Source of the DNA: Candidatus Dadabacteria bacterium
GTDB lineage: Bacteria > Desulfobacterota_D > UBA1144 > Nemesobacterales > Nemesobacteraceae
Length of the DNA: 32,000 nt
Assembly (NCBI GenBank): GCA_028823955.1
Contig: JAPPFE010000014.1
Span: 1 to 32,000 of the forward strand
Direction of reading: 5' to 3'
How positions within the stretch are numbered: the stretch's first letter is position 1; the number at the start of each line of letters is the position of its first letter. Positions 3,350 through 24,332 of the stretch are shown here, piece after piece. Under the pieces are notes generated by a model, which was not told the origin of the DNA, did no database searches, and saw nothing but the letters and a program-made list of their open reading frames with translations. Both the position numbers and the translations under genes were made by a program.

Positions 3350-4249
3350 ATGAGCGTATATATTTCAGAAGAGATGAACGAACTGCTCGAAAGCTTCATA
3401 AAGCACCTCTCGGACGAAAGAAACTACTCGGAGCACACCGTAAAGGCCTACAGGGGCGATCTTGAGAATTTCCACGATTTTCTCTTAAAGGAAAAGAAAA
3501 AAATTGAGGACGCGGACATTGCGACAATAAACGCATACGTCTCAACGCTCTACGGAAAAAACTCCCCCTCCTCAGTCGAGAGAAAAGTATCGGCGATAAG
3601 ATCTTTTTTCTCGTATCTGGTAAGAAAAGGCCTCGCAGCGCAGAATCCCGCAAAACTCGTGCGCACCCCTAAAAAGGAAAAGCACCTCCCAGTGTTTTTA
3701 AGCGTGGACGAGGTGTTCAATCTGGTCGACGTAAAGGATTCTGAGAAAAATCCGCTTCGCGTACGCGATAGAGCGATTCTTGAGCTTCTTTATTCAAGCG
3801 GCCTTCGTGTAAGCGAACTTGCGGGAACCACGCTCGCCGACCTCAGCATGGGAGAAGCGATAATAAGGGTTCGCGGGAAAGGAAGCAAGGAGAGAATCGT
3901 TCCCGTGGGATCAAAGGCACTTTCCGCTCTCGGGAAGTATCTTGACATAAGAAAAACGCTGAAACCCGCATCCGACCATATATTCCTGAACTCTCGGGGA
4001 GGCGGAATAACCACAAGAAGTCTGGCGCGGATAATAAAAAAGTACGGCCTAGTATCGGGGATATCGAAAAACGTGAGTCCCCACGTACTTAGACACTCGT
4101 TTGCCACCCACCTGCTTGCGGGCGGCGCAGACCTTCGGGCAATCCAGGAGATGCTCGGTCACGCGAGTCTCTCGACGACCCAGAGATACACCCACCTCTC
4201 GGTCGAGCGGATAATGGAAGTGTACGACAAGACTCACCCGAACGCCTAG
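3350..4249 (+). CDS. xerC: Tyrosine recombinase XerC/XerD type
   Basis: A 299-residue site-specific recombinase, the usual length for XerC/XerD, which resolve chromosome dimers at dif. The N-terminal SAM-like core-binding domain spans about residues 8-95 (FIKHLSDERNYSEHTVKAY). The catalytic domain has all expected residues: R153 in GLRVSEL, K177 in RVRGKGSK, H245 and R248 in HVLRHSFATHLL, H271 in LGHASLSTTQ and nucleophile Y280 in RYTH. XerC and XerD are hard to separate by eye; the call rests on position immediately before hslVU, the order seen in the Bacillus codV-clpQ-clpY operon. The first ATG is used, and an ATG at 3374 is a possible alternative. hslV follows after 27 nt. Confidence 0.93.
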   Translation: MSVYISEEMNELLESFIKHLSDERNYSEHTVKAYRGDLENFHDFLLKEKKKIEDADIATINAYVSTLYGKNSPSSVERKVSAIRSFFSYLVRKGLAAQNPAKLVRTPKKEKHLPVFLSVDEVFNLVDVKDSEKNPLRVRDRAILELLYSSGLRVSELAGTTLADLSMGEAIIRVRGKGSKERIVPVGSKALSALGKYLDIRKTLKPASDHIFLNSRGGGITTRSLARIIKKYGLVSGISKNVSPHVLRHSFATHLLAGGADLRAIQEMLGHASLSTTQRYTHLSVERIMEVYDKTHPNA

Positions 4250-4276
4250 AGGCAACGGGAGAAAGGGGAAAAGATT

Positions 4277-4813
4277 ATGAGCCAATTTCACGGAACCACG
4301 ATACTCTGCGTTAAAAAAGACGGTCGGGTGGCGTTAGGAGGCGACGGCCAAGTAACCATGGGAGCAACCGCGGTAAAGCATAAAGCGAACAAGATAAGAA
4401 AAATGCGCGGCGGGAAAATCTGCGCCGGATTCGCGGGTTCAACGGCAGACGCGATGACGCTTTTTGACAAGTTCGATGGAAAGCTTGAGGAATTCAGCGG
4501 AAGCCTTGAGCGCGCAGCAGTCGAACTCGCAAAGGAATGGAGATCGGACAGAATCCTGAGAAGGCTCGAGGCCCTGCTGATAGTCGCTAACTCTGAAACC
4601 ATGCTCATAATCTCGGGAAGCGGAGACGTAATAGAACCCGATGAGAGCGTGATAGCGATAGGATCGGGAGGTCCCTTCGCCCAGGCGGCAGCTTTGGCGC
4701 TTGCCAAGCACTCGGAGCTCTCCGCCCCGGAGATAGTTAAGCGCTCACTTGAGATCGCAGCCGGAATCTGCATTTACACAAATAGTCACATATCGATAGA
4801 GGAAATAGATTAA
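4277..4813 (+). CDS. hslV: ATP-dependent protease HslV (ClpQ) peptidase subunit
   Basis: The 178-residue peptidase of the HslUV proteasome-like complex, which degrades unfolded substrates in the cytoplasm. The short propeptide MSQFHG is expected to be cleaved before Thr7, exposing the N-terminal threonine nucleophile; HG-TT is the usual processing junction. Counting from that Thr as 1, Asp17 (GGDG) and Lys33 (NKIRK) are both in their family positions. GFAGSTADA and the C-terminal ICIYTN segment also match. An AAGGGG ribosome site lies 8 nt before the ATG. The stop TAA is followed at once by the hslU ATG, so the two are cotranslated. Length is normal. Confidence 0.97.
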
Positions 4814-6163
4814 ATGTCCCAAGAATCCTACCTCACCCCGAGGGAAATAGTATCGGAGCTAGACAAGTACATAGTCGGACAGAACATGGCCAAAAGGGCC
4901 GTGGGCGTGGCACTCAGGAACAGGTGGAGAAGGCAGAAGGTATCGCCCGAGCTTCGCGACGAGATATCCCCAAAGAACATACTTATGATGGGACCCACCG
5001 GCGTGGGAAAAACAGAGATAGCCCGGCGCCTGGCGAAACTTGCCCAAGCCCCCTTCGTAAAGGTCGAAGCGTCAAAGTTCACCGAGGTTGGGTACGTGGG
5101 TAGAGACGTTGAGTCAATGATACGAGACTTAACCGAGATAGCCGTCAACATGGTAACAGAGGAGGAGACCCTTTCGGTTAACACGAGGGCTAGGGAGCTT
5201 GCCGAGGACAAGCTCATTGACCTGCTCGTTCCGACTCGTCCCGTCACTGGGACGGAGGAAGACATGGATGAGACCAAGAGAAAAATGAGCGAGACCAAAA
5301 AGAAGATGAGAAAGCTTCTTTGGGATGGAAAGCTCGACGACAGGGAAGTCGAGATAGAGATAACGGCGAGGACCCTTCCCATACAGGTGTTCAGCCAGGC
5401 GGGAGTTGAGGAAATGGACCCCGGAATCTCGGAGATGATCGGAAGCCTGATGCCCAAAAAATCGAAAGTAAGAAAGGTTAAGGTTCCCGAGGCCATGGAC
5501 ATTCTCACCGAGGAGGAAGCCCGAAGACTGATAGACATGGACAAAGTTACCCAGTTAGCTCTCGAGAGAACCGAGAACTCGGGAATAATCTTCATAGACG
5601 AGATAGACAAGGTCGCCGGAAAAAACGGCGTCTCGGGGCCTGATGTTTCAAGGGAGGGGGTGCAGAGGGATCTTCTCCCTATAATCGAAGGGAGCAGCGT
5701 CACTACGAAGCACGGCATGGTCAGAACCGACCACATACTTTTCATCGGAGCCGGGGCGTTTCACGTCTCAAAACCGTCCGATCTCATACCCGAGCTCCAA
5801 GGGCGCTTTCCCATAAGAGTTGAGCTTGAGGCGCTCACCAAAGACGACTTCATACGGATCCTCACCGAGCCCAAAAACGCGCTCATAAAACAGTACACCG
5901 AGCTTATGAGGACCGAGGACATAAAACTCTCTTTCACTGACGAAGCAATAGAGAAAATAGCCGAAACCGCAGCCGAAGTTAACAGCTCTACCGAGAACAT
6001 AGGGGCAAGGAGGCTTCACACCGTTCTCGAGAAGCTGCTTGATGAGATCTCCTTTAACGCTCCCGATATGAAGGAGAAGAAATTCACCATAGACAAAAGC
6101 TATGTTGAGGAGAAAATAGCCGACATCGTCAAGGACAGGGATCTAAGCAGGTATATACTCTAG
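4814..6163 (+). CDS. hslU: HslU (ClpY) AAA+ unfoldase subunit of HslUV
   Basis: A 449-residue AAA+ ATPase that unfolds substrates and threads them into HslV. It has the N-terminal [17 protein letters not shown], Walker [10 protein letters not shown] at 60-68, the pore-loop motif GYVGRDVE at 93-100, a charged intermediate I-domain roughly at 110-235, Walker [10 protein letters not shown] at 258-266 and sensor regions up to about 440. The C-terminal tail ends LSRYIL, the segment that inserts between HslV subunits to activate the peptidase, so the pair should be functional. It starts on the base after the hslV stop. Downstream, after 61 nt, the Anbu cassette begins on the same strand. Confidence 0.97.
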
Positions 6164-6224
6164 GAAGCTTTTGCATAACCTTCACTTTTAGTTAGGTTTT
6201 TCGAAAAAATTCCTTGGAACCAAG

Positions 6225-7700
6225 ATGAATTTTAAAAACTATGACACGGAAGGCTTTTACGACGAGGTATTCAAGGATAACGCCACCCCGCATGAGTGGA
6301 CCCGCTTTTTAACCGACAGGATAGAAAGCCTCTCAGGCGGAGAGTTGATCGAGAGGCAGAAAGCGGCCGAGATGAACCTGTTCGAGATGGGGGTCACCTT
6401 CACCCTCTACTCGGAGAAAAAGAAGGGCTCCGAGGAGAACATTTTCCCCTTCGACATAATTCCTAGGATAGTGTCTGCCGAGGACTGGGAGCTCATAGAA
6501 AGGGGCCTCAAGCAGAGAATCCACGCGCTTAACCTCTTCATAGACGACATATACAACGACCGGAAGATTCTGAGGGACAAAGTGGTTCCCAAGGAACTCA
6601 TCCTCTCAAGCAGGGAGTTTCGCCTTGACTGCGTCGGTTTTTCCCCGCCGAAGAATATCTGGTGCCATATCACGGGAACGGACCTTATAAGACATTCGGA
6701 CGGAAACTTCTACATCCTCGAAGACAACCTGCGCTCCCCCTCCGGCGTCTCCTACGTGCTTGAGAACCGCGAACTTCTGAAACGCACGTTTCCCAAGGTA
6801 TTCGGCACCGTCGAGATAATGCCCATAAGCGATTACGGGCTCCACCTTCATGACACCCTCCAGTATCTGCTATCTGACAGAACGGCTAACCCCAAGGTGG
6901 TGCTTCTCACCCCGGGGATATATAACTCGGCCTACTTCGAACACTCGTTTCTGGCAAAGGAGATGGGAATAGAGCTTGTCGAGGGAAGGGATCTCGTCGT
7001 GGTAGAGAACTTCGTTTACCTAAAGACCACTAAGGGGCTTGAAAAAGTGGACGTCATATACAGAAGGATAGACGATAACTTCCTTGACCCTCAGGTGTTC
7101 CGCCCGGATTCAGTGCTCGGAGTTCCGGGGCTTTTCGGCGCGTACAAGGCCGGAAACGTCGCCATAGCCAACGCCCCAGGAGGAGGAGTGGCCGACGACA
7201 AGATAATATACGCCTACGTTGAGAAGATAATAAAGTACTACCTGGGAGAAGATCCCATAATCTCGAACGTGCCGACGTATATCTGCGAGGAGGATGAAGC
7301 CAGAAAATACGTACTCGACAATATAGAGAAGCTGGTCGTAAAGCCCGCGAATGAATCTGGAGGATACGGGATAGTGTTCGGACCCAAAGCGACGAAAGAG
7401 GAGCTGGCCCAAGCCAAAAGAGATATAAAAGCGGATCCCAGAAACTACATAGCCCAGAAGACTATGTCCCTCTCCCGTGCTCCCGTGATAGTGGACGATC
7501 ACTTCGAGGGACGCCATGTCGATCTGAGACCCTTCATTCTTTACGGAAAAGAAATATTCGTCCTGCCCGGAGGCCTTACCAGAGTAGCGTTGCGCAAAGG
7601 TTCGATGATAGTCAATTCGTCTCAGGGAGGCGGAAGCAAGGACACTTGGGTGCTTGCTCCCGCAAAGAACGCCGGGGGCAAAGGAGGCAGAAAATCCTAA
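6225..7700 (+). CDS. Circularly permuted ATP-grasp protein (COG2308 type) of the Anbu cassette
   Basis: A 491-residue circularly permuted ATP-grasp enzyme. Family signatures include the N-terminal FYDEVF, the block IIPRIVSAEDWELIERGLKQR near residues 80-100, LEDNLRSPSGVSYVLENR near 170-190, RRIDDNFLDP near 280-290, a GVADDK segment and the C-terminal KPANESGGYG and RPFILYG blocks. ATP-grasp folds join a carboxylate to an amine using ATP, and this family has been predicted to make peptide bonds or tags, though the substrate is not established. A GGAA lies 6 nt before the ATG. Its stop TAA overlaps the beginning of the alpha-E gene, so the two are likely cotranslated. Length is normal. Confidence 0.92.
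   Translation: MNFKNYDTEGFYDEVFKDNATPHEWTRFLTDRIESLSGGELIERQKAAEMNLFEMGVTFTLYSEKKKGSEENIFPFDIIPRIVSAEDWELIERGLKQRIHALNLFIDDIYNDRKILRDKVVPKELILSSREFRLDCVGFSPPKNIWCHITGTDLIRHSDGNFYILEDNLRSPSGVSYVLENRELLKRTFPKVFGTVEIMPISDYGLHLHDTLQYLLSDRTANPKVVLLTPGIYNSAYFEHSFLAKEMGIELVEGRDLVVVENFVYLKTTKGLEKVDVIYRRIDDNFLDPQVFRPDSVLGVPGLFGAYKAGNVAIANAPGGGVADDKIIYAYVEKIIKYYLGEDPIISNVPTYICEEDEARKYVLDNIEKLVVKPANESGGYGIVFGPKATKEELAQAKRDIKADPRNYIAQKTMSLSRAPVIVDDHFEGRHVDLRPFILYGKEIFVLPGGLTRVALRKGSMIVNSSQGGGSKDTWVLAPAKNAGGKGGRKS
7682..7696 (+). promoter_or_regulatory. Shine-Dalgarno AGGAGG deciding an ATC start
   Basis: AGGAGG (7682-7687), a 6-nt spacer and then ATC at the exact position where alpha-E proteins have their initiator methionine. 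The ATP-grasp stop codon lies at 7698-7700, so initiation would occur within reach of the terminating ribosome. Confidence 0.65.
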
Positions 7701-8674
7701 GTCGCGTCGCAGAGTCTATATACTGGATGAGCCGCTACGCCGAGCGCGCAGGGAACACTGCGAGGCTTATAAGCGTAAACCTAGGCCTCGCCATTGACAC
7801 CCATGACTCCGTTGAGCAGGAATGGGACCCCATAGTAAAGGTGACGGGAGACATGGAGCTTTTCAGAAGCCTTTATGACAGCACTACCCGGGAAAACGTA
7901 ATAAACTTCATGGTACTTGACCGCAACAACCCGAACTCGATCATCTCCTGCGTTAACTGCGCCCGTGAGAACGCAAGTTCCGTTAGGGAGATAATCTCTT
8001 CTGAGATGTGGCTTCTAATAAACCGCTTCTACCACAAGCTGAACAGCGACGAAGCCAAGCAGAAGCTGCTCGACAATCCCGGAAAGTTCTGCGAAGTGGC
8101 AAAAGTGCAGAGCCTTCTTTTTCACGGATCCGGGTACATAAGCATATCCCACGGCGAGGCGTGGCATTTCTCAGAACTCGGAAAGCAAATGGAACGAGCC
8201 GACAACACTTCCAGGATACTCGACGTCAAGTACTACACCCTGCTTCCCAAGGCTGAACTCGTGGGAACGTCGATAGACAACATGCAGTGGATAGCCCTTC
8301 TTAAATCGACAAGTGCCCTTGAGACCTACAAGGCGAAGCATCAACAGATATCCATAGGCAACGTGCTCGATTTTCTCATCCTTGATAACCAGTTTCCACG
8401 CTCGATAATCTACTGCGTTGGGCAGGCCGACGAGTCGCTTCACTGCATATCTAACAGTCCTGCCGGCTCCTATAACAACGAAACCGAAAAAGAGATGGGA
8501 AGGCTTCTATCGGATCTTCGGTTCATAAGCGTCGGGGAGATAATACAGCGTGGAATGCACGAGTACTTAAGCAGTTTTCAGTCCCACATAAACGAGGTCG
8601 GAAACCGCATATACGACGATTACTTCGGCTACAGCATAACAGACAGCACCCTTCGGGAGTTTGACAATATCTGA
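7694..8674 (+). CDS. Alpha-E domain protein (DUF403, COG2307) with probable ATC start
   Basis: An all-helical protein of the alpha-E family, the constant partner of the circularly permuted ATP-grasp enzyme. The diagnostic opening is LSRVAESIYWMSRYAERAGNTARLI, and later family blocks include NARENASSVREIIS-like, WHFSELGKQMERADNTSRILD and SALETYKAKH. Family members normally begin M-L-S-R-V-A; here that methionine position is ATC at 7694-7696. A perfect AGGAGG at 7682-7687 sits 6 nt before it, so an ATC start giving 326 residues fits best. The only other option is a TTG at 7646 adding 16 residues of basic, non-family sequence that overlap the upstream gene. Biochemical function is unknown; it is thought to act with the ATP-grasp protein. 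Confidence 0.88.
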   Translation: MLSRVAESIYWMSRYAERAGNTARLISVNLGLAIDTHDSVEQEWDPIVKVTGDMELFRSLYDSTTRENVINFMVLDRNNPNSIISCVNCARENASSVREIISSEMWLLINRFYHKLNSDEAKQKLLDNPGKFCEVAKVQSLLFHGSGYISISHGEAWHFSELGKQMERADNTSRILDVKYYTLLPKAELVGTSIDNMQWIALLKSTSALETYKAKHQQISIGNVLDFLILDNQFPRSIIYCVGQADESLHCISNSPAGSYNNETEKEMGRLLSDLRFISVGEIIQRGMHEYLSSFQSHINEVGNRIYDDYFGYSITDSTLREFDNI

Positions 8675-8686
8675 GAGAGGAAACAG

Positions 8687-9424
8687 ATGACTTTCTGCGT
8701 GGGAATGAGACTAAAAGAAGGGATAATCGGTCTTGCCGACAACCTCATAATAACGGGAAACGAAGCCATACGGGCAAAGAAAGTCACTACCCACAGGACC
8801 GGGGATAAATCGTTTTTCCTTATGACCTCGGGACTTCGCTCCGCGAGAGACAAGACTATTACCTATCTTGACGAGTCCCTTGAGCACTCCCAGGAATCCC
8901 TTGACCGCCTCTACAAGGCAGTGAACATTTTCTCAAGGGAGCTTCGGAGGGTGAAAGAGGAAGACGGTGAGGCTCTTTCCAAATCGGGGTTTACCTTCAA
9001 CATGTACTCCATAATAGGAGGGCAGTTCGAAAACGACCCCGAGCCCCAGCTTTTTCTCGTCTATCCCCAAGGAAACTGGATCAACGTGGGAACCACCTCT
9101 CCCTATGTTATAATAGGCGAGTCGAAATACGGAAAACCGATAATAAAAAGAACCCTTACCTACGACACCAGCCTCGATGTCGCGCTTCGCATCGCATACC
9201 TTGCGTTTGATTCAAGCCGCATAAACGCCATAGACGTCGATTTTCCGATAGACATCGTAGTCTACAGAAGCAATTCATTTTCCCTCGAGCAGTACAGGTT
9301 CAACGAAAACGAACTGGCAGATATATCCGATTGGTGGCAAGAGAGGCTCAGAAAATCGGCCGAGGAAATGCCCGCCGAATGGGTAAGAAAAATTCTTAAC
9401 AAAAGCCCGAAAAGTGCTGCTTAG
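8687..9424 (+). CDS. Anbu proteasome-type peptidase (COG3484)
   Basis: A 245-residue Ntn-hydrolase of the Anbu family, ancestral-type relatives of HslV and 20S proteasome subunits that assemble into open helical rings. After methionine removal the protein starts with Thr1 (TFCVGMRLKEGIIGLAD), giving Asp17, and a Lys-Lys pair at 30-31 that aligns with the HslV Lys33 if a two-residue gap is allowed. The TSGLRSARD segment corresponds to the G-rich substrate loop. Unlike HslV, the sequence continues to a long C-terminal region ending in a charged helix (WWQERLRKSAEEMP). AGAGAGGAAA lies about 5 nt before the ATG. It sits 12 nt after alpha-E and overlaps the transglutaminase gene by 11 nt, the typical cassette. 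Natural substrates are unknown. Confidence 0.92.
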   Translation: MTFCVGMRLKEGIIGLADNLIITGNEAIRAKKVTTHRTGDKSFFLMTSGLRSARDKTITYLDESLEHSQESLDRLYKAVNIFSRELRRVKEEDGEALSKSGFTFNMYSIIGGQFENDPEPQLFLVYPQGNWINVGTTSPYVIIGESKYGKPIIKRTLTYDTSLDVALRIAYLAFDSSRINAIDVDFPIDIVVYRSNSFSLEQYRFNENELADISDWWQERLRKSAEEMPAEWVRKILNKSPKSAA

Positions 9425-10295
9425 CATAGATCACAACACAACTTATTCCTATGGAAAAAAAGTGGTCCTAGCCCCTCACATCGTGAGGCTTTGCCCGAGA
9501 AACGGCGGGGGGCAAATGACTCATATGTTTTCGCTCAGGACGGATCCCCCCGAAGCAGGAAGAAGCGTGAACTCGGATCTTGACGGAAACACTACCGTTA
9601 CCCTATGGTTTATGGGCGAGTTCGACAGTCTTACAATCAATACCAGTTGCGTTGTCGAGACGCTTCGGGGAAACCCTTTTGATTTCATAGTTTCCGACGT
9701 AAGGTTCCTTGATCTGCCGATGAAATACCCTAGCGAGCAGAAGGCAGCTCTTCGCCCGTACCTGGCGGTGAGCAAAAAAACGGCCCTAGCGGTCTCGCCA
9801 CTTCGCGAAACGATTCTCTCGCAGACCATGGGAAAAACCACGGATTTTATTCTCTCGCTCTGTGAACACATACACGATAACTTTCCCCACGTTGTCAGGG
9901 AGCAGGGTGGCCCTTGGTCCGCAGAGAGAACCCTCGGGGAAAAAAGGGGGTCTTGCAGGGATCTCGTGGAGCTTTTCGCGGCCGTCTGTCGCTCGACGGG
10001 ACTTGCGTGCAGGCACGTAAGCGGCTATGCGCTCAGCGCAAGAAGAAAAAAAGGAGACGAGCTTCACGCCTGGGCCGAGGTCTACATACCGGGCGGAGGA
10101 TGGAGAGGCTATGATCCCTCTTCGGGTCTCGCAGTCTCAGACCGTCACGTCGCGGTCGCAAGCGGTCCCACCCACGGCCTCATCGCTCCCGTTTCAGGAA
10201 GTTTCTATGGGGACGGAGCCGAAGTCGAACTCCGGTTCCGTGTAAGGGTAAAAAAGACGGGGAAACGGGAGAAAAAAGCCCTAGGGCTTCTCTAG
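9414..10295 (+). CDS. Transglutaminase-like cysteine protease/transferase of the Anbu cassette
   Basis: A 293-residue protein with the N-terminal beta-sandwich region seen in bacterial transglutaminase-like proteins (IDHNTTYSYGKKVVLAPHIVRLCPR) and a C-terminal transglutaminase core. The catalytic triad is visible: Cys in KRGSCRDLVELF near residue 182, His in ELHAWAEVY near 219 and Asp in GYDPSSG near 235. These folds cleave or form amide bonds, and in this cassette the protein is expected to act on the same peptide substrate as the ATP-grasp partner; that is inference. The GTG start overlaps the Anbu gene by 11 nt and has no strong ribosome site, suggesting coupling. No signal peptide is seen, so it is likely cytoplasmic. 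Confidence 0.9.
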   Translation: MLLSIDHNTTYSYGKKVVLAPHIVRLCPRNGGGQMTHMFSLRTDPPEAGRSVNSDLDGNTTVTLWFMGEFDSLTINTSCVVETLRGNPFDFIVSDVRFLDLPMKYPSEQKAALRPYLAVSKKTALAVSPLRETILSQTMGKTTDFILSLCEHIHDNFPHVVREQGGPWSAERTLGEKRGSCRDLVELFAAVCRSTGLACRHVSGYALSARRKKGDELHAWAEVYIPGGGWRGYDPSSGLAVSDRHVAVASGPTHGLIAPVSGSFYGDGAEVELRFRVRVKKTGKREKKALGLL

Positions 10296-10322
10296 AGGAC
10301 AAAAATCCTACGATGAGTCCTC
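10295..10322 (+). terminator. Weak hairpin after the Anbu cassette
   Basis: GAGGAC (10295-10300) pairs with GTCCTC (10317-10322) around a 16-nt loop, directly at the stop codon of the transglutaminase gene. There is no T run, so it is at best a weak or factor-dependent terminator. Confidence 0.3.
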
Positions 10323-10333
10323 CTTAAAAGTCG

Positions 10334-10362
10334 TGCAATTACAATTTAATTCATGCTATAAT
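10334..10362 (+). promoter_or_regulatory. Extended -10 promoter for the TonB-dependent receptor
   Basis: A consensus TATAAT at 10357-10362 is preceded by TGC, giving an extended -10 (TGnTATAAT). At 17-bp spacing the -35 region is only TGCAAT, a weak match, as expected when the extended -10 does the work. It lies about 90 bp before the chosen receptor start. Confidence 0.6.
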
Positions 10363-10451
10363 GGGGATTTTAGAGGAAGGCCAAAAAAGCCACCGGGCAG
10401 TATTGGTAAATGCAGGTCATGCTATCGAAAAAAAGGGGGGAAGACATCTCA

Positions 10452-12758
10452 ATGGTTCGCAGAAAATTTAAATCCAGGTTAAAAGCACTCTTAGGCACTT
10501 TCGCTGTAGGCGCGGTTCTTACTCTTATAAGCGGCGTCTCGGCAAACGCCCAGGACGCATTCGGCGTAAGCAGCGTCCTGCTTGAGAAGATCACAGTCAC
10601 GGCGCGGAAACGGGAAGAGCCGATTCAGAACGTTCCCCTCTCGGTAACACATTTCAGCTCCGAGCAGATCGACGCTCTTAAGGTAAGGAACCTTGAAAGT
10701 CTTGCTGTAAAGATGCCCAACGTCGCGCTTGACGACATCGGCACCGTTGGGGGAATCGCTAACTTCTCCATTCGCGGACTCGGGATAAACAGCTCCATAC
10801 CGTCCGTTGACCCGACCGTGGGAGTGTTCGTCGACGGCGTGTATTTCGGGGCCAACATCGGCGGCGCCCTGTTCGACACGCTTGATATCGAGAGCATCGA
10901 GGTGCTTAGAGGTCCGCAGGGAATCCTTTTCGGGCGTAACGTGACCGGGGGCGCGATACTCATCAACACGAAGAAACCTGGAGACACTCTGGAGATGTCC
11001 TTTCGCACCTCTTTTGAGGGGGGAGGAGAGAGTCTCAACAGCTACTACATGGGCACGGTGGGAGGCCCTCTGGGCGAAACCGTTAGCGCCAGGATAACCG
11101 CGTACACAAACCAGGATAACGGCTGGTTCAAGAACCTCCACACCGGCAAAGCTTTCGGAGATTTAGACGTCCGAATGGTACGGCCGGTGCTCGTCTGGGA
11201 ACCCACAGACGACCTGAGCTTGGTGCTCCGATACCAGTACGATAGCATCGACGGCGACGGCCCCGCGGCACAGAACCACGCAAACGGATTCGGCGTCTCA
11301 AACGCGGCGGCTAACTTTGACCGAGACAGCCACGACTTCAGCATCAATAATGAAGGCAAAAGAGAAAACGAAGCTCATTTTTTCAGCGCCCAGATGGACT
11401 GGGACGTAGGTTTTGGCAACGGCACGATAACAAACATTTTCGGCTGGCGCGATTCAGAAACCTTCTCGTCAGTTGATCTCGACGCCTCGCCGCTTGAATT
11501 AATGAGCGCGCAGGCATGGAGCCATTACAGGCAGTGGAGTAACGAACTGCGTTACACGGGCAGGTTTTTTGAAAGACTCAATGCTACCGCAGGAGTCTAT
11601 TATTTCAGCAACAAGATCAACTACCACGAGCATCGATCTCTTCTTACCGCCGCTATTGCGGCATCGGGTCTTCCCTTCCCGCCAGGGACGGACGTGTCCC
11701 AGTTCGGAGGCGGAAACTACGACGTTGAAACTCTGGGCCTCTTCCTCTCTCTGGACTATGATCTTACAAGCCAGCTGACGCTCACCGCGGGTACCCGGTA
11801 CACGCGTGACAAAAGAGATGGCGAAATAGCTTTGATTCCCACCAGCAGTCCCCTTGCGCCGCTACCGTCTTGCAATATCGTCGAAGGTCCCGCCTGCGAG
11901 TTTGATTTCATAGATGAGGAGACATGGCACAGCTGGTCGCCCAAGGTCGGCGCCACTTATTACATAAGCGGCGAAGCCAACGTTTACGGACACTGGACCA
12001 GAGGATTTCGCTCCGGAGGCTATAACCTTCGCAACCTTTCGCCCATCCACTCCCCGGGACCGTACGATGAAGAGACAATCGACAGCTTCGAGGCCGGATT
12101 CAAGGTCACAAAAGACCGCGGCCGTCTATACGGAGCAGCCTTCTACAACATGATTGATGACATGCAAAGGGAAATTAACTTTCCCGATCCAGCACTCGGT
12201 ATAGTTCAGTTGATCGACAACACCGCCGATGTTGAGGCCTACGGCTTTGAGCTTGACGGCCTGTTCGCCATAGCGGAGAACCTGTTCGTGATCGGCTCCG
12301 TAGGGTACGTCAATCCCGAGTACACCAAAGTAAAACATGACCTTAATCGAGACGGGACTCTTGACGTAAAAGATCTGGCTTTAGAGCTTCCCCGCGCCGC
12401 GAAGTGGACTTACAGCGTGGGACTCACACACGACACGGGAGCAGCCAGCTGGGGGCGGATGACGTCCCGAATAAGCTACGCTTACCGCGACAAGTCATAC
12501 TTCACCGATGACAACAGGGGCTATATACTGGAGCAGAACATACTTGACGCCGGGATTGACATCATTCCCGCAAACGGCCGGTTCTCAATCGGCCTTTACG
12601 GCAAGAACCTGCTTGACGAAGTCAAGCATGGGGGCGACAGCACGCTGCCCAGCACCTTGGGCCTTCCACCTCTGTCGGCACCTCTTGGCGGCACGTTCTC
12701 ACCGCTTGCAAAAGGCAGGATCTTCGGAGTTCAGCTGACCTACCGGCACAAGAGCTGA
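10452..12758 (+). CDS. TonB-dependent outer-membrane receptor
   Basis: A 768-residue outer-membrane active-transport receptor. A basic signal peptide (MVRRKFKSRLKALLGTF..., ending SANA before QDA) is followed by a TonB box region EKITVTARKREEPIQNVPLSVT, a plug domain (IRGLG, PTVGVFVDGVYF, IEVLRGPQGILFGRNVTGGAI) and a long beta-barrel with YTRDKRDG-like and GFRSGGYN blocks, closing with a final strand FGVQLTYRHKS. The start at 10452 is preferred because GGGGGGAAG lies about 9 nt upstream and the signal peptide then begins at residue 1; an earlier ATG at 10410 adds a 14-residue non-signal extension. The style matches the large iron-complex receptor group common in sphingomonads and sponge or marine bacteria. 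The ligand cannot be told. No tonB, exbB or exbD is in the window. Confidence 0.93.
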   Translation: MVRRKFKSRLKALLGTFAVGAVLTLISGVSANAQDAFGVSSVLLEKITVTARKREEPIQNVPLSVTHFSSEQIDALKVRNLESLAVKMPNVALDDIGTVGGIANFSIRGLGINSSIPSVDPTVGVFVDGVYFGANIGGALFDTLDIESIEVLRGPQGILFGRNVTGGAILINTKKPGDTLEMSFRTSFEGGGESLNSYYMGTVGGPLGETVSARITAYTNQDNGWFKNLHTGKAFGDLDVRMVRPVLVWEPTDDLSLVLRYQYDSIDGDGPAAQNHANGFGVSNAAANFDRDSHDFSINNEGKRENEAHFFSAQMDWDVGFGNGTITNIFGWRDSETFSSVDLDASPLELMSAQAWSHYRQWSNELRYTGRFFERLNATAGVYYFSNKINYHEHRSLLTAAIAASGLPFPPGTDVSQFGGGNYDVETLGLFLSLDYDLTSQLTLTAGTRYTRDKRDGEIALIPTSSPLAPLPSCNIVEGPACEFDFIDEETWHSWSPKVGATYYISGEANVYGHWTRGFRSGGYNLRNLSPIHSPGPYDEETIDSFEAGFKVTKDRGRLYGAAFYNMIDDMQREINFPDPALGIVQLIDNTADVEAYGFELDGLFAIAENLFVIGSVGYVNPEYTKVKHDLNRDGTLDVKDLALELPRAAKWTYSVGLTHDTGAASWGRMTSRISYAYRDKSYFTDDNRGYILEQNILDAGIDIIPANGRFSIGLYGKNLLDEVKHGGDSTLPSTLGLPPLSAPLGGTFSPLAKGRIFGVQLTYRHKS

Positions 12759-12772
12759 CGGACCGGCAATTG

Positions 12773-12784
12773 CGCCCCGGGGCG
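12773..12784. repeat. 12-bp GC palindrome CGCCCCGGGGCG
   Basis: A perfect palindrome 15 bp after the receptor stop codon. It has no loop and no T run, so it is not a standard terminator by itself. It may be a protein-binding site or chance. Confidence 0.35.
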
Positions 12785-12848
12785 ATTATGAGCGGTCGCA
12801 GTCGCGGTGGCTGAAACGAGAATTCCCAGGCGGAAATCCCTTCTCCAT

Positions 12849-12874
12849 CCCTGAGGCGTTTTTGCGTCCTCGGG
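12849..12874 (+). terminator. Imperfect hairpin, possible terminator between receptor and argB
   Basis: CCC-T-GAGG-CG (12849-12858) pairs with CG-T-CCTC-GGG (12865-12874) with one bulged T on each side and a 6-nt TTTTTG loop. It is followed by GATTTCTT rather than a clean T run. A terminator for the receptor transcript is plausible but unproven. Confidence 0.35.
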
Positions 12875-12953
12875 AGATTTCTTGACCCCGGATACTGCTG
12901 TTTTCTTTTCGGCCCCGAAACCCAAATTCTCATATATGATTATCCTTGAAGTG

Positions 12954-12983
12954 TTGTAATAAAAACCCCGGTTGCTATATAAT
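12954..12983 (+). promoter_or_regulatory. Promoter of the argBDF operon
   Basis: TTGTAA (12954-12959) and TATAAT (12978-12983) are 18 bp apart; the overlapping TATATA at 12976 carries a TGC extension. Transcription would start close to 12990, giving a short leader that contains the argB ribosome site AGGAG. No arginine operator was recognised. Confidence 0.6.
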
Positions 12984-13010
12984 GTTTTTTTTCGCAGAAA
13001 GGAGTTTTTC

Positions 13011-13892
13011 ATGAACAGTTCAGCCCAGAGGGCGGAAATACTGGTTGAGGCCCTTCCCTACATAGAGGCGTTTCACGGCAAAACCGTCGTGGTCAAATAC
13101 GGCGGAAGCTTAGCCAAGACGGATCTTTCAAATTTCGTGCGCGACCTCATACTGATGAAGTACGTCGGGATAAAACCGGTAGTAGTGCACGGAGGAGGAC
13201 CCCAGATTCAGGAGTATCTCGACACTATGGGAATAAAATCCGACTTCATAGCCGGACTCCGCGTTACCAGCAGAGAGGTAATGGAAGTGGTCGAGATGGT
13301 GCTTGTCGGAAAGATAAACCAGCAGATCGTAACGTCGATAAACCGCCACCAGATGGAAACGGTGGGGCTCTCAGGCAAGGAAGGAAAGCTTATAAAAGCT
13401 AAAAAGTTCGACCTTCACAAATTCGCCGCCAAACACCGTATAGATATTGCCGAGGACGCAGACCTCGGCTACGTGGGCGAAGTTCAGGAAGTAAATCCCG
13501 AGGTAATCAGGGTGCTTGAAGGCAAAGATATCATTCCGATTATAGCTCCCATAGGGTTGGGGGAGGACGGAACCACCTACAACATAAATGCGGACCACGT
13601 GGCGGGGAAAATAGCGGGAGCGCTTCGCGCTGCAAAGCTCATACTGCTGACCAACGTTGACGGCATCCTAGACAAGAAAGGAAAACTCATATCCTCCGTG
13701 ACTAAAAAGCAGGCTGAGAAACTTATCAGGGACGGGACGATAAACAGCGGAATGATCCCCAAGGTGATGTGCGCGCTTGAGGCTCTGGAAGAAGGGGTCA
13801 GCAAGGTGCACATAATAAACGGGGGAGTAAAAAGGGCTCTCATACTTGAGCTTCTTACAAATCTGGGAATAGGGACGGAGATAACCCTTTGA
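13011..13892 (+). CDS. argB: Acetylglutamate kinase
   Basis: A 293-residue amino-acid kinase that phosphorylates N-acetyl-L-glutamate, the second step of arginine synthesis. Signatures are VVVKYGGS (27-33) for phosphate binding, VVVHGGGPQI (about 57-66), NINADHVAGKIAGAL for substrate and nucleotide contacts, and a C-terminal HIINGGVKRALILELL. It has the N-terminal helix region (ILVEALPYIEAFHGKT) and the GLSGKEG segment found in arginine-inhibited, hexameric kinases, so feedback control is likely. The ATG at 13011 has AGGAG 6-7 nt upstream; a longer frame from 12972 would start inside the promoter. argD follows 11 nt after the stop. Confidence 0.96.
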   Translation: MNSSAQRAEILVEALPYIEAFHGKTVVVKYGGSLAKTDLSNFVRDLILMKYVGIKPVVVHGGGPQIQEYLDTMGIKSDFIAGLRVTSREVMEVVEMVLVGKINQQIVTSINRHQMETVGLSGKEGKLIKAKKFDLHKFAAKHRIDIAEDADLGYVGEVQEVNPEVIRVLEGKDIIPIIAPIGLGEDGTTYNINADHVAGKIAGALRAAKLILLTNVDGILDKKGKLISSVTKKQAEKLIRDGTINSGMIPKVMCALEALEEGVSKVHIINGGVKRALILELLTNLGIGTEITL

Positions 13893-13903
13893 GGTCAGGG
13901 AAA

Positions 13904-15097
13904 ATGGAAGACTCGCGGGGAAAATACCTGATGGAGACCTACAGCCGTCTTCCCATAACGATGCGGAAGGGAAGCGGTTCGTGGCTCTGGGATACGGAAG
14001 GGAAAAAGTATCTTGACTACACGGCCGGGATAGCCGTTAACAACCTCGGGCACTGTCACCCTAGTATCACGGACGCCATAACATCCCAGGCTGCCACTCT
14101 GATTCACACCTCAAACCTCTTTAACATAGAAAACCAGAGTGCACTCTCCGAGATGCTCGTTTCAAACTCGTTTGCGGACAAGGTGTTTTTCTGTAACAGC
14201 GGAACCGAAGCCGTTGAAGGCTCGATAAAGCTCGCCAGGAAATGGGGAGCGCAAAACGGCGGAAAATTCGCGGTCATTTCAACCGAAGGAGCCTTTCACG
14301 GAAGGACTTTCGGGGCGCTTAGCGCCACGGAATCTGAAAAATACAGGGAGGGGTTCTCCCCTTTCCTTGAAGGATTCCACTTCGCTCCCTACGCGGACCC
14401 CGAGGCGATAGCACGCCTGGCCTCGGAGACAAACCCCTGCGCGGTCATTCTCGAACCGGTGCAGGGAGAAAACGGAGTCATCGTTCCGCCCCCCGGGTAT
14501 CTAAAGCAGGTAGAGGAGATATGTGGGAAAAGCGACATGTTGCTCATACTTGATGAGATCCAGGTCGGTATGGGAAGGACGGGAAGACTGTTCGCCTACG
14601 AGCACGAGGACATAAGGCCCGACATAGTGGCGCTCGCAAAGGCTCTCGGCGGCGGAATGCCGTGCGGAGCGGTCCTGGCTAGGGAGGACGTGGCGAAGCA
14701 CTTCACTCCCGGGGTCCACGGAAGCACTTTCGGTGGAAATCCCCTGGCCGCGGGGGCGGCCTGCGCCTCGATCGAAACAATACTTCGGGAAAACCTGCCC
14801 GAAAAAGCGGGAGAACTCGGAGACTATTTTCTTGGCAAGCTTGAAGATGTCCGGAAAAAATATTCCGAGCATATAACAGAGGTAAGGGGAAAGGGGCTTA
14901 TAATCGGGGTTGAGTTCTCAGACGGGACCTTCGCCCGGAACTGTTTTTCGATCTCAGTTAAAAACGGGCTTCTAGTTATACTTACTGTCGAGCGCGTGTT
15001 TCGGATTCTTCCTCCGCTTAACACAAACAAAGAAGAAATTGACTTTGCCGTCGATGTCATAACGAAATCCATCGAGGAGGTGGTTTCTAGTGGGTAG
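13904..15097 (+). CDS. argD: Acetylornithine aminotransferase
   Basis: A 397-residue class-III PLP aminotransferase converting N-acetylglutamate semialdehyde to N-acetylornithine. It shows YLDYTAGIAVNNLGHCHP, SGTEAVEGSIKLARKW for phosphate binding, EGAFHGRTFGAL, the LDEIQVGMGRTG block with the PLP-ring Asp, and the Schiff-base lysine in ALAKALGGGMPCG (about Lys246). The ATG at 13904 is preferred over a TTG at 13889 because GAGG and AGGG lie just upstream and the family N-terminus begins near there. Family members also act on succinylornithine or succinyl-diaminopimelate, but placement between argB and argF fixes the arginine role. Its end overlaps argF by 8 nt. Confidence 0.95.
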   Translation: MEDSRGKYLMETYSRLPITMRKGSGSWLWDTEGKKYLDYTAGIAVNNLGHCHPSITDAITSQAATLIHTSNLFNIENQSALSEMLVSNSFADKVFFCNSGTEAVEGSIKLARKWGAQNGGKFAVISTEGAFHGRTFGALSATESEKYREGFSPFLEGFHFAPYADPEAIARLASETNPCAVILEPVQGENGVIVPPPGYLKQVEEICGKSDMLLILDEIQVGMGRTGRLFAYEHEDIRPDIVALAKALGGGMPCGAVLAREDVAKHFTPGVHGSTFGGNPLAAGAACASIETILRENLPEKAGELGDYFLGKLEDVRKKYSEHITEVRGKGLIIGVEFSDGTFARNCFSISVKNGLLVILTVERVFRILPPLNTNKEEIDFAVDVITKSIEEVVSSG

Positions 15098-23552: not shown

Positions 23553-24332
23553 TCAGAATGCCTCATCGAGCATGCGCAACTGCTCGGGGGAAAGTCTCCA
23601 ACCCGAGGCCCCGCAGTTCTCGACCGTTCTCGCCACCGAATCCGCCTTCGGAATTACGATGACGTTCTCCTGGCAAACACACCAGTTAAGGGCAACCTGA
23701 GCCTCCGTCTTCCCGGTCTCGGCCGCTATCCGGGACAAAATTCCGCGCCCGGGACGGCAGAGCCTCCCGGCATCAAGCGGGGTGTAGGCCATCACGGTTA
23801 CGTCGTTATCCAAGCAGTAGGGAAGCAGCTCTTTTTGTATATCCCTTGACCTAAGGTTGTAGAGCACCTGGTTTGAAACTATGGGGTAGTTGGGAAAATA
23901 GTGCTGCGCCTCGCGCATCTGCCTCGCGGAGAAATTGCTCACCCCGACGTAGCTTACGCATCCGCGGTCAACCAGCTTCTCAAGCGCTCTCATTGTCCCT
24001 TCTATCGGATAGACGGGGTTCGGCCAGTGTATCTGGTAGAGATCTATGCAGTCCGTGCCAAGCTTCCCGAGACTTGCCTCGCAGGACCTAAGCACGCTGT
24101 CGTGGGCAAGATTCCTTCCTGAAACCTTCGTCGCTATGATAACCTCGTCTCTGAAGGGACGCACGGCCTCGCCGACTATATCTTCCGTGTAGTACCCCTC
24201 GGCGGTATCTATAAGCGAAGCCCCCAGCTTGATGCCCGCCCTCAGAGGTTCCACTCCCCCCTTGTAGTTCCACGTGCCAAGTCCGATCTCGGGAACGAGA
24301 ACTTCCGTGGTTCCAAGCTTCTTAAAATTCAT
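23553..24332 (-). CDS. Aldo/keto reductase
   Basis: A 259-residue NAD(P)H-dependent oxidoreductase with the TIM-barrel aldo/keto reductase fold. The catalytic tetrad is present: Asp42 and Tyr47 in IDTAEGYYTE, Lys69 in IATKVSG and His102 in QIHWPNP. Other family pieces are IGLGTW near residue 16, GVSNFSARQM near 150 and the cofactor-binding VIPKADSVARTVEN near 228. The substrate is not predictable. The protein ends soon after LRMLDEAF, a little short of the usual 270-280 residues. It lies in a minus-strand run with a nitroreductase 90 nt upstream and amt downstream, with no obvious functional link. Confidence 0.92.
   Translation of the reverse strand: MNFKKLGTTEVLVPEIGLGTWNYKGGVEPLRAGIKLGASLIDTAEGYYTEDIVGEAVRPFRDEVIIATKVSGRNLAHDSVLRSCEASLGKLGTDCIDLYQIHWPNPVYPIEGTMRALEKLVDRGCVSYVGVSNFSARQMREAQHYFPNYPIVSNQVLYNLRSRDIQKELLPYCLDNDVTVMAYTPLDAGRLCRPGRGILSRIAAETGKTEAQVALNWCVCQENVIVIPKADSVARTVENCGASGWRLSPEQLRMLDEAF

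Follow-up and report, generated by a model that had tools for sequence, protein, structure and literature searches.

The locus and its gene string

The stretch analysed here, which we call the window, comprises positions 1 to 32,000, in nucleotides (nt), of the forward strand of contig JAPPFE010000014.1 from a 1.68-Mb, 95% complete assembly of Candidatus Dadabacteria (GCA_028823955.1), and our subject is a string of genes in which those of the HslUV protease are followed by a cassette that contains Anbu, a proteasome-like N-terminal nucleophile (Ntn) hydrolase. All genes of the string lie on the plus strand. It starts with xerC, encoding a tyrosine recombinase (3350..4249; TIGR02224, 345.2 bits with a cut-off of 335.15), and continues with hslV, encoding the peptidase of HslUV (4277..4813; TIGR03692, 268.3 bits, cut-off 157.75), and hslU, encoding the AAA+ unfoldase (4814..6163; TIGR00390, 656.8 bits, cut-off 362.45). 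After 61 nt (6164..6224) the cassette begins with a gene for a circularly permuted ATP-grasp protein (CP_ATPgrasp_2/1; 6225..7700; PF14403/PF04174), followed by alpha-E (7694..8674; PF04168), Anbu (8687..9424; PF00227), in which a Thr comes directly after the Met, and, as the final cassette gene, one for a transglutaminase-like protein (9414..10295; PF01841 and PF08379). The successive junctions measure 27, 0 and 61 nt, an overlap, 12 nt and an 11-nt overlap. ATP-grasp, alpha-E, transglutaminase and Anbu, the genes by which the four-gene Anbu operon is recognised, are thus present together in the window. The transglutaminase sequence contains the motifs GSC, HAW and YDP, which we take to be catalytic.

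An earlier note on this DNA, based on the sequence and a list of its open reading frames (ORFs), had described a co-directional string of seven genes with these gaps, and the ORFs together with the Pfam and NCBIfam matches bear out its coordinates and strands. For alpha-E, the presence of the gene, its strand and its end at 8674 stand, while the mechanically assigned TTG start at 7646 probably has to give way to a start at 7694. The wider context had been missed in the note, as the string is part of a longer block that runs on, past a gene for a TonB-dependent receptor (plus strand, 10410..12758), into argB (plus strand, 12972..13892, with the TTG start given by the ORF finder; a later start is likely) and argD (plus strand, 13889..15097). 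The names argB and argD are our assumption, made from sequence features (a conserved sequence in the case of argB) and not from a family search. In the spacer that precedes the receptor gene (10296..10409, plus strand), there is a TATAAT promoter-like site with a 9/12 match, which was equalled or bettered in 24 of 300 shuffles.

Distribution in Dadabacteria and probable history of an insertion

Our survey covered 57 genomes (that of the window and 56 others), all belonging to the same class as the window's genome, to which the name Dadabacteria refers throughout, and Anbu was found in 27 of them. The stretches around hslV and Anbu were compared for many of these genomes. Four families that lack Anbu have the genes in the order xerC-hslV-hslU-argB-argD, and hslU is close to argB in them: the gap is 42 nt in G014, 26 nt in G016 and 64 nt in G018, and the distance between the two matches is about 62 nt in G022 and 38 nt in G045. 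The cassette lies between hslU and argB in family f1, that is, in the 13 genomes of the window's genus (g1, including the window) and in G013, and in family f7 (G019 and G023), and the linkage is thus shared by the window's genus, the genus that is sister to it and another family. Thirteen of these 16 genomes have hslU and the ATP-grasp gene on one contig; in the other three (G005, G012 and G023) contig ends interrupt the interval in a pattern that is compatible with linkage. Behind the cassette, argB is present in 15 of the 16, the contig of G001 stopping before argB, and one further record (L019) carries the same string as the window. The neighbourhood is therefore a feature of a lineage and not an accident of one genome, and the conservation of gene order that the earlier note had asked about extends across two families.

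The other Anbu carriers are arranged differently. In six Dadabacteria (G015, G020, G024, G026, G033 and G035) the cassette lies away from hslU, in G026 about 480 kb from it on the same contig, and five carriers on short contigs (G028, G030, G032, G034 and G042) were kept outside the linked and unlinked counts. A distance of 1.0-1.5 kb separates hslU from argB in family f3 (G015, G020, G024 and G035), and one of 3.5 kb in G026. In G024 the gene in between matches the chlorite dismutase family. The Pfam match to this family lies between hslU and argB at L048:7066-7872, and ORFs that look chlorite dismutase-like by eye occur in L044, L046, L050, L054 and L057, likewise between hslU and argB or, in the case of L054, just behind hslU; all are from families f3 and f5.

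We consider it likely that the cassette was inserted into a core gene cluster and has been inherited with it, and that the two modules are independent and at most loosely co-transcribed. According to this reading, a complete Anbu cassette would have been inserted, probably once, between hslU and argB of an ancestral xerC-hslV-hslU-argB-argD cluster; the event would predate the split of the two families, and the arrangement would have been passed on since then. The trees are consistent with such a history. Linked cassettes form one clade in a tree of the four concatenated cassette genes (support 0.939), their carriers form one clade in a five-gene host tree (0.914), and the argBD tree also groups the carriers (0.922). 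One insertion in the common ancestor of f1 and f7 is the simplest reading of these sequence trees and is moderately supported. Several observations weigh against it. The linked clade is not recovered by trees based on hslUV only or on ATP-grasp only, and the tree of Anbu only supports it at just 0.267. Within the clade, G013 pairs with f7 in the cassette tree (0.931) and with genus g1 in the host tree (0.995), and there is room for exchange between lineages after the insertion. In addition, family f5, most of whose members lack Anbu, has hslU and argB about 0.9, 1.1 and 3.3 kb apart in G017, G025 and G027, all three without Anbu, and the tight ancestral order is therefore not universal.

Junction signals and the alpha-E start

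The alternative that survives best, although we regard it as unlikely, is that hslVU and the cassette form one extended operon whose products act as a unit of protein quality control or turnover without any contact between HslU and Anbu. It is favoured by the common strand, by the conservation of the linkage over two families and by the narrowness of the junction in 6 of the 13 genus genomes (60-67 nt in G000, G010, G003, G002, G006 and G007). The linkage is a less telling argument than it may seem, since the genes to the right keep their order equally well: for the ten window genes from argB to position 24332, the order is kept for 10/10 on contig C69 of G013 and for 8/10 on contig C26 of G019, a small antisense ORF at 12740-13012 being excluded from the count. 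Past 24332, the order was seen for 0/6 ORFs in G013, whose contig stops about 5.7 kb beyond, and for 1/6 in G019, the comparison covering the fetched stretches only. Conservation of the stretch from argB to 24332 is thus general, and the cassette is not better preserved than the genes to its right; for this reason we rejected the idea that conservation of the linkage proves selection for coupling.

The extended operon is further contradicted by what separates hslU from the cassette in other members of the genus. The spacer is 326 nt in G004 and 248 nt in G009, and the interval reaches 2,521 nt in G001, 2,421 nt in G008 and 3,389 nt in G011. According to Pfam, the interval of G001 holds toxin-antitoxin genes of the AbiEi/AbiEii type; that of G011 contains AbiE-like genes, recognised by eye, and an ORF on the opposite strand, and that of G008 a helix-turn-helix (HTH)/M78 protein gene with a partner ORF. 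An HTH protein that by eye resembles the one of G008 is encoded behind hslU at the contig end of G012, and in G005 a gene for an MvdD-like ATP-grasp protein lies in opposite orientation on the cassette side of the junction. As a side observation, the latter gene and a small ORF upstream of it possibly constitute a graspetide cassette, and the junction as seen in L024, L030, L032, L035, L039 and L040 gives the impression of a hot spot for insertions within the genus.

The sequence immediately upstream of the ATP-grasp gene can be aligned in all 13 genus genomes up to the point where the insertions start, but it is only partly conserved: of the last six 10-column blocks, three have a pairwise identity of 82-84% and three of 59-64%. 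In 8 of the 13 genomes it contains a candidate promoter, TTG[T/G]CA-17-TA[G/A]ATT, which matches the consensus at 9/12 positions (equalled in 0-7 of 300 shuffles). The best match in this junction is 8/12 in the window, G010, G011 and G012 (22-25 of 300 shuffles equal) and 7/12 in G002 (71 of 300). These scores refer to an E. coli sigma-70-type consensus. The sites gain credibility because many species have good ones in the same position; these species are related, and therefore the counts are not independent. Behind hslU in family f7, G019 has a 12-bp hairpin with a U-rich tail that resembles a terminator (z -3.61), and G023 has a 13-bp hairpin at the corresponding position that lacks a U tail (z -6.55).

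Other observations weigh against complete separation of the two modules. The weaker blocks upstream of the ATP-grasp gene are no better conserved than the four-fold sites of that gene (64%), and the -35-like hexamer sits in these blocks. In the window itself, the first hexamer of the corresponding promoter-like site lacks a base, the 8/12 match (22 of 300 shuffles equal) is located elsewhere, and a 9/12 site inside the end of hslU reflects a chance-level density of such matches. No terminator was found in the window's own 61-nt junction, and no significant structure behind hslU was detected in the window (z -0.53) or in G013 (z -0.69), the junction of the latter being without a terminator or a clear promoter. 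In the window, where the promoter match is poor and no terminator is seen, transcription may well read through from hslU into the cassette, and it may do so in the other five genomes with tight junctions.

The earlier note had proposed possible shared control and had named a strong terminator and a separate promoter between hslU and the ATP-grasp gene as evidence that would speak against it. The window has no clear instance of either, while hairpins are present in G019 and G023 and promoter-like sites in 8 of 13 genus genomes. Across the lineage the junction is not kept free of terminator-like hairpins, promoter-like sites and foreign genes, as a single operon would lead one to expect, and shared control as a conserved property is not supported in view of these hairpins and sites and of the 2.4-3.4 kb of foreign genes in three congeners.

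Further downstream, argB behind the cassette is predicted to have a promoter of its own. In all 22 tested genomes in which argB is parted from hslU, the argB promoter match is 10-11/12, and where argB abuts hslU, the best match is 8 in G014, 8 in G016, 0 in G018 and 7 in G022. G045 does not fit this pattern and counts against it, its match being 10/12 though hslU abuts argB. A TonB-dependent receptor gene separates the cassette from argB in every genus genome but G004 (12 of 13), and was not seen there in G013, G019 and G023.

A second feature of the cassette concerns the start of alpha-E, which in this genus seems to be AUC or AUU. At the position where the gene has ATG in 11 genomes outside the genus, an AUC is present in 12 of the 13 genus genomes and an AUU in G004, in each case behind a Shine-Dalgarno-like purine run (AAGGAGG in the window), and in the window, where the start region spans 7684-7700, this start overlaps the stop of the ATP-grasp gene. 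In 6 of the 13 genomes, the open alpha-E frame contains no ATG, GTG or TTG upstream of this position (300 nt scanned); in G004 just one AAA codon lies between the AUU and an in-frame stop. The conserved residues LSRVA precede the first ATG. A -1 frameshift from the ATP-grasp gene into alpha-E was considered as well and is less likely than initiation at AUC, because G002 and G007 have no A run at the site. The AlphaFold2 model of alpha-E has a mean predicted local distance difference test (pLDDT) score of 86.7. A Foldseek search with this model against the PDB gave no match at E <= 0.001, and the best VIA-align match was NasR, with a Z of 9.6 and a root mean square deviation of 5.5 over 228 residues, a range that this tool regards as unspecific for helical proteins; the fold thus gave no lead to a function.

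HslUV, Anbu and the known systems

The proteins encoded by the two modules look like ordinary members of their families. HslV has a propeptide, MSQFHG, followed by Thr-Thr, which aligns with solved HslV and provides the canonical nucleophile, and HslU ends in DLSRYIL, compared with DLSRFIL in a solved chain. Window Anbu matches five solved chains named Anbu, designed Anbu or peptidase, the best being 5loy (E 9.7e-37, residues 2-229). It has no propeptide, and its T2, D18 and K32 are invariant in 14 Dadabacteria sequences, the active-site Lys having been matched by eye through the alignment to the solved chains. According to the insertion reading, HslU and HslV would form an ordinary ATP-dependent protease and the cassette would act independently of it, as in other bacteria. 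In the cassette, the ATP-grasp and transglutaminase proteins would make or remodel amide bonds, alpha-E would assist, and Anbu, as an Ntn hydrolase, would act on the product of the cassette or on proteins.

The earlier note had suggested that HslU might also serve Anbu, so that one ATPase would feed two assemblies of Ntn hydrolases, which we now regard as very unlikely. Two published observations lend the idea some appeal: according to Fuchs et al. (PMC5666114), no AAA+ gene neighbours Anbu at the genomic level, and such a gene adjoins the cassette here; and Piasecka et al. (PMC6376114) describe a superposition in which the HslU tail could fit the groove between Anbu subunits. The former source also reports that Anbu forms an open ring in solution, which argues against the partnership. 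Moreover, the C-terminal heptapeptide of HslU is DLSRYIL in 23 of the 25 Dadabacteria from which it was extracted, be these linked, unlinked or devoid of Anbu; the exceptions, DLSKYIL in G018 and DLSHYIL in G033, are both from genomes without linkage. HslV occurs without an Anbu match in 22 Dadabacteria, several of whose assemblies are less than 90% complete.

Outside the phylum, HslU stayed below the cut-off in all 22 Anbu genomes searched for it (G085, G103, G260, G261, G367, G378, G404, G406 and 14 others drawn from the 32 further Anbu positives in the phylum of G378). Of 386 genomes searched, 33 had Anbu, including the 27 Dadabacteria, and Anbu was also found in 3 of 24 genomes of the phylum of G260 and 34 of 194 of that of G378, counts obtained with a profile built from Dadabacteria only, with which distant Anbu may be missed. 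The independence of Anbu has to be qualified within the phylum, as each of the 27 Dadabacteria with Anbu showed HslU or HslV (in G042, which is 59% complete, HslU as fragments only), and Anbu without HslUV is therefore not shown there. The fuller picture, in which HslU would be the linked unfoldase both of the closed double ring of HslV and of the open assembly of Anbu, with ATP-grasp, alpha-E and transglutaminase marking the substrates, strikes us as highly improbable; the idea of a peptide mark, raised in the earlier note too, reportedly goes back to a proposal by Iyer et al. in 2009. A functional fusion of HslUV and the Anbu cassette is not supported. That the neighbourhood arose by chance, as an assembly join or an accident of a single strain, would fit the variable left flank, whose order was mostly not seen elsewhere, but it can be dismissed because the same order occurs in many assemblies, one of which (G007) is a single contig of 1,590,246 bases.

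No hslU beside Anbu was found outside Dadabacteria in the genomes checked, which did not comprise a dedicated survey of Pseudomonadota chromosomes. Among the PLSDB matches listed (20 of 25 for Anbu and all 31 for HslV), three records have both Anbu and HslV, at distances of about 2.2 Mb in Klebsiella (CP125156.1), 1.6 Mb in Aeromonas (NZ_AP026896.1) and 0.2 Mb in Methylobacterium (NZ_LR743510.1). The earlier note knew of no description of xerC-hslVU joined to an Anbu cassette, and in agreement with this our literature search found no paper describing a link between hslUV and Anbu. This lineage is an exception, at the level of gene neighbourhood, to the lack of AAA+ genes beside Anbu stated in PMC5666114, and therefore lends itself to testing whether an unfoldase can be accepted by Anbu. 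In view of the comparative evidence, the neighbourhood alone should not be taken for a functional link, which calls for caution in annotating Anbu by guilt by association.

In terms of known systems, the cassette has the same genes, on one strand and with tight junctions, as the four-gene Anbu operon described for Yersinia bercovieri (PMC6376114) and in general (PMC5666114). It differs in that its order is ATP-grasp, alpha-E, Anbu, transglutaminase and in that it is placed beside hslU; L086, a record from Klebsiella, is annotated with ATP-grasp first, then an unannotated gap, then transglutaminase and Anbu. The transglutaminase gene was seen to precede Anbu in G085, G367 and the Klebsiella record (L064, L068 and L086), and to follow it in Dadabacteria, G260 and G261. 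Compared with the Anbu-2 subtype as defined by Fuchs et al. (2017, PMC5666114), window Anbu has, by eye, Ile and Ala at the I20 and A29 positions and conserved Arg residues close to the S1 region, and its assignment to this subtype is provisional and made by sequence. Known Anbu is an open helical dodecamer. As for HslUV (ClpQY) with xerC upstream, the window proteins exceed the curated cut-offs, have the canonical nucleophile and HslU tail and show no difference from the known system; it is the downstream neighbour that differs. What is new here is thus that two known modules lie side by side, HslUV itself being unchanged.

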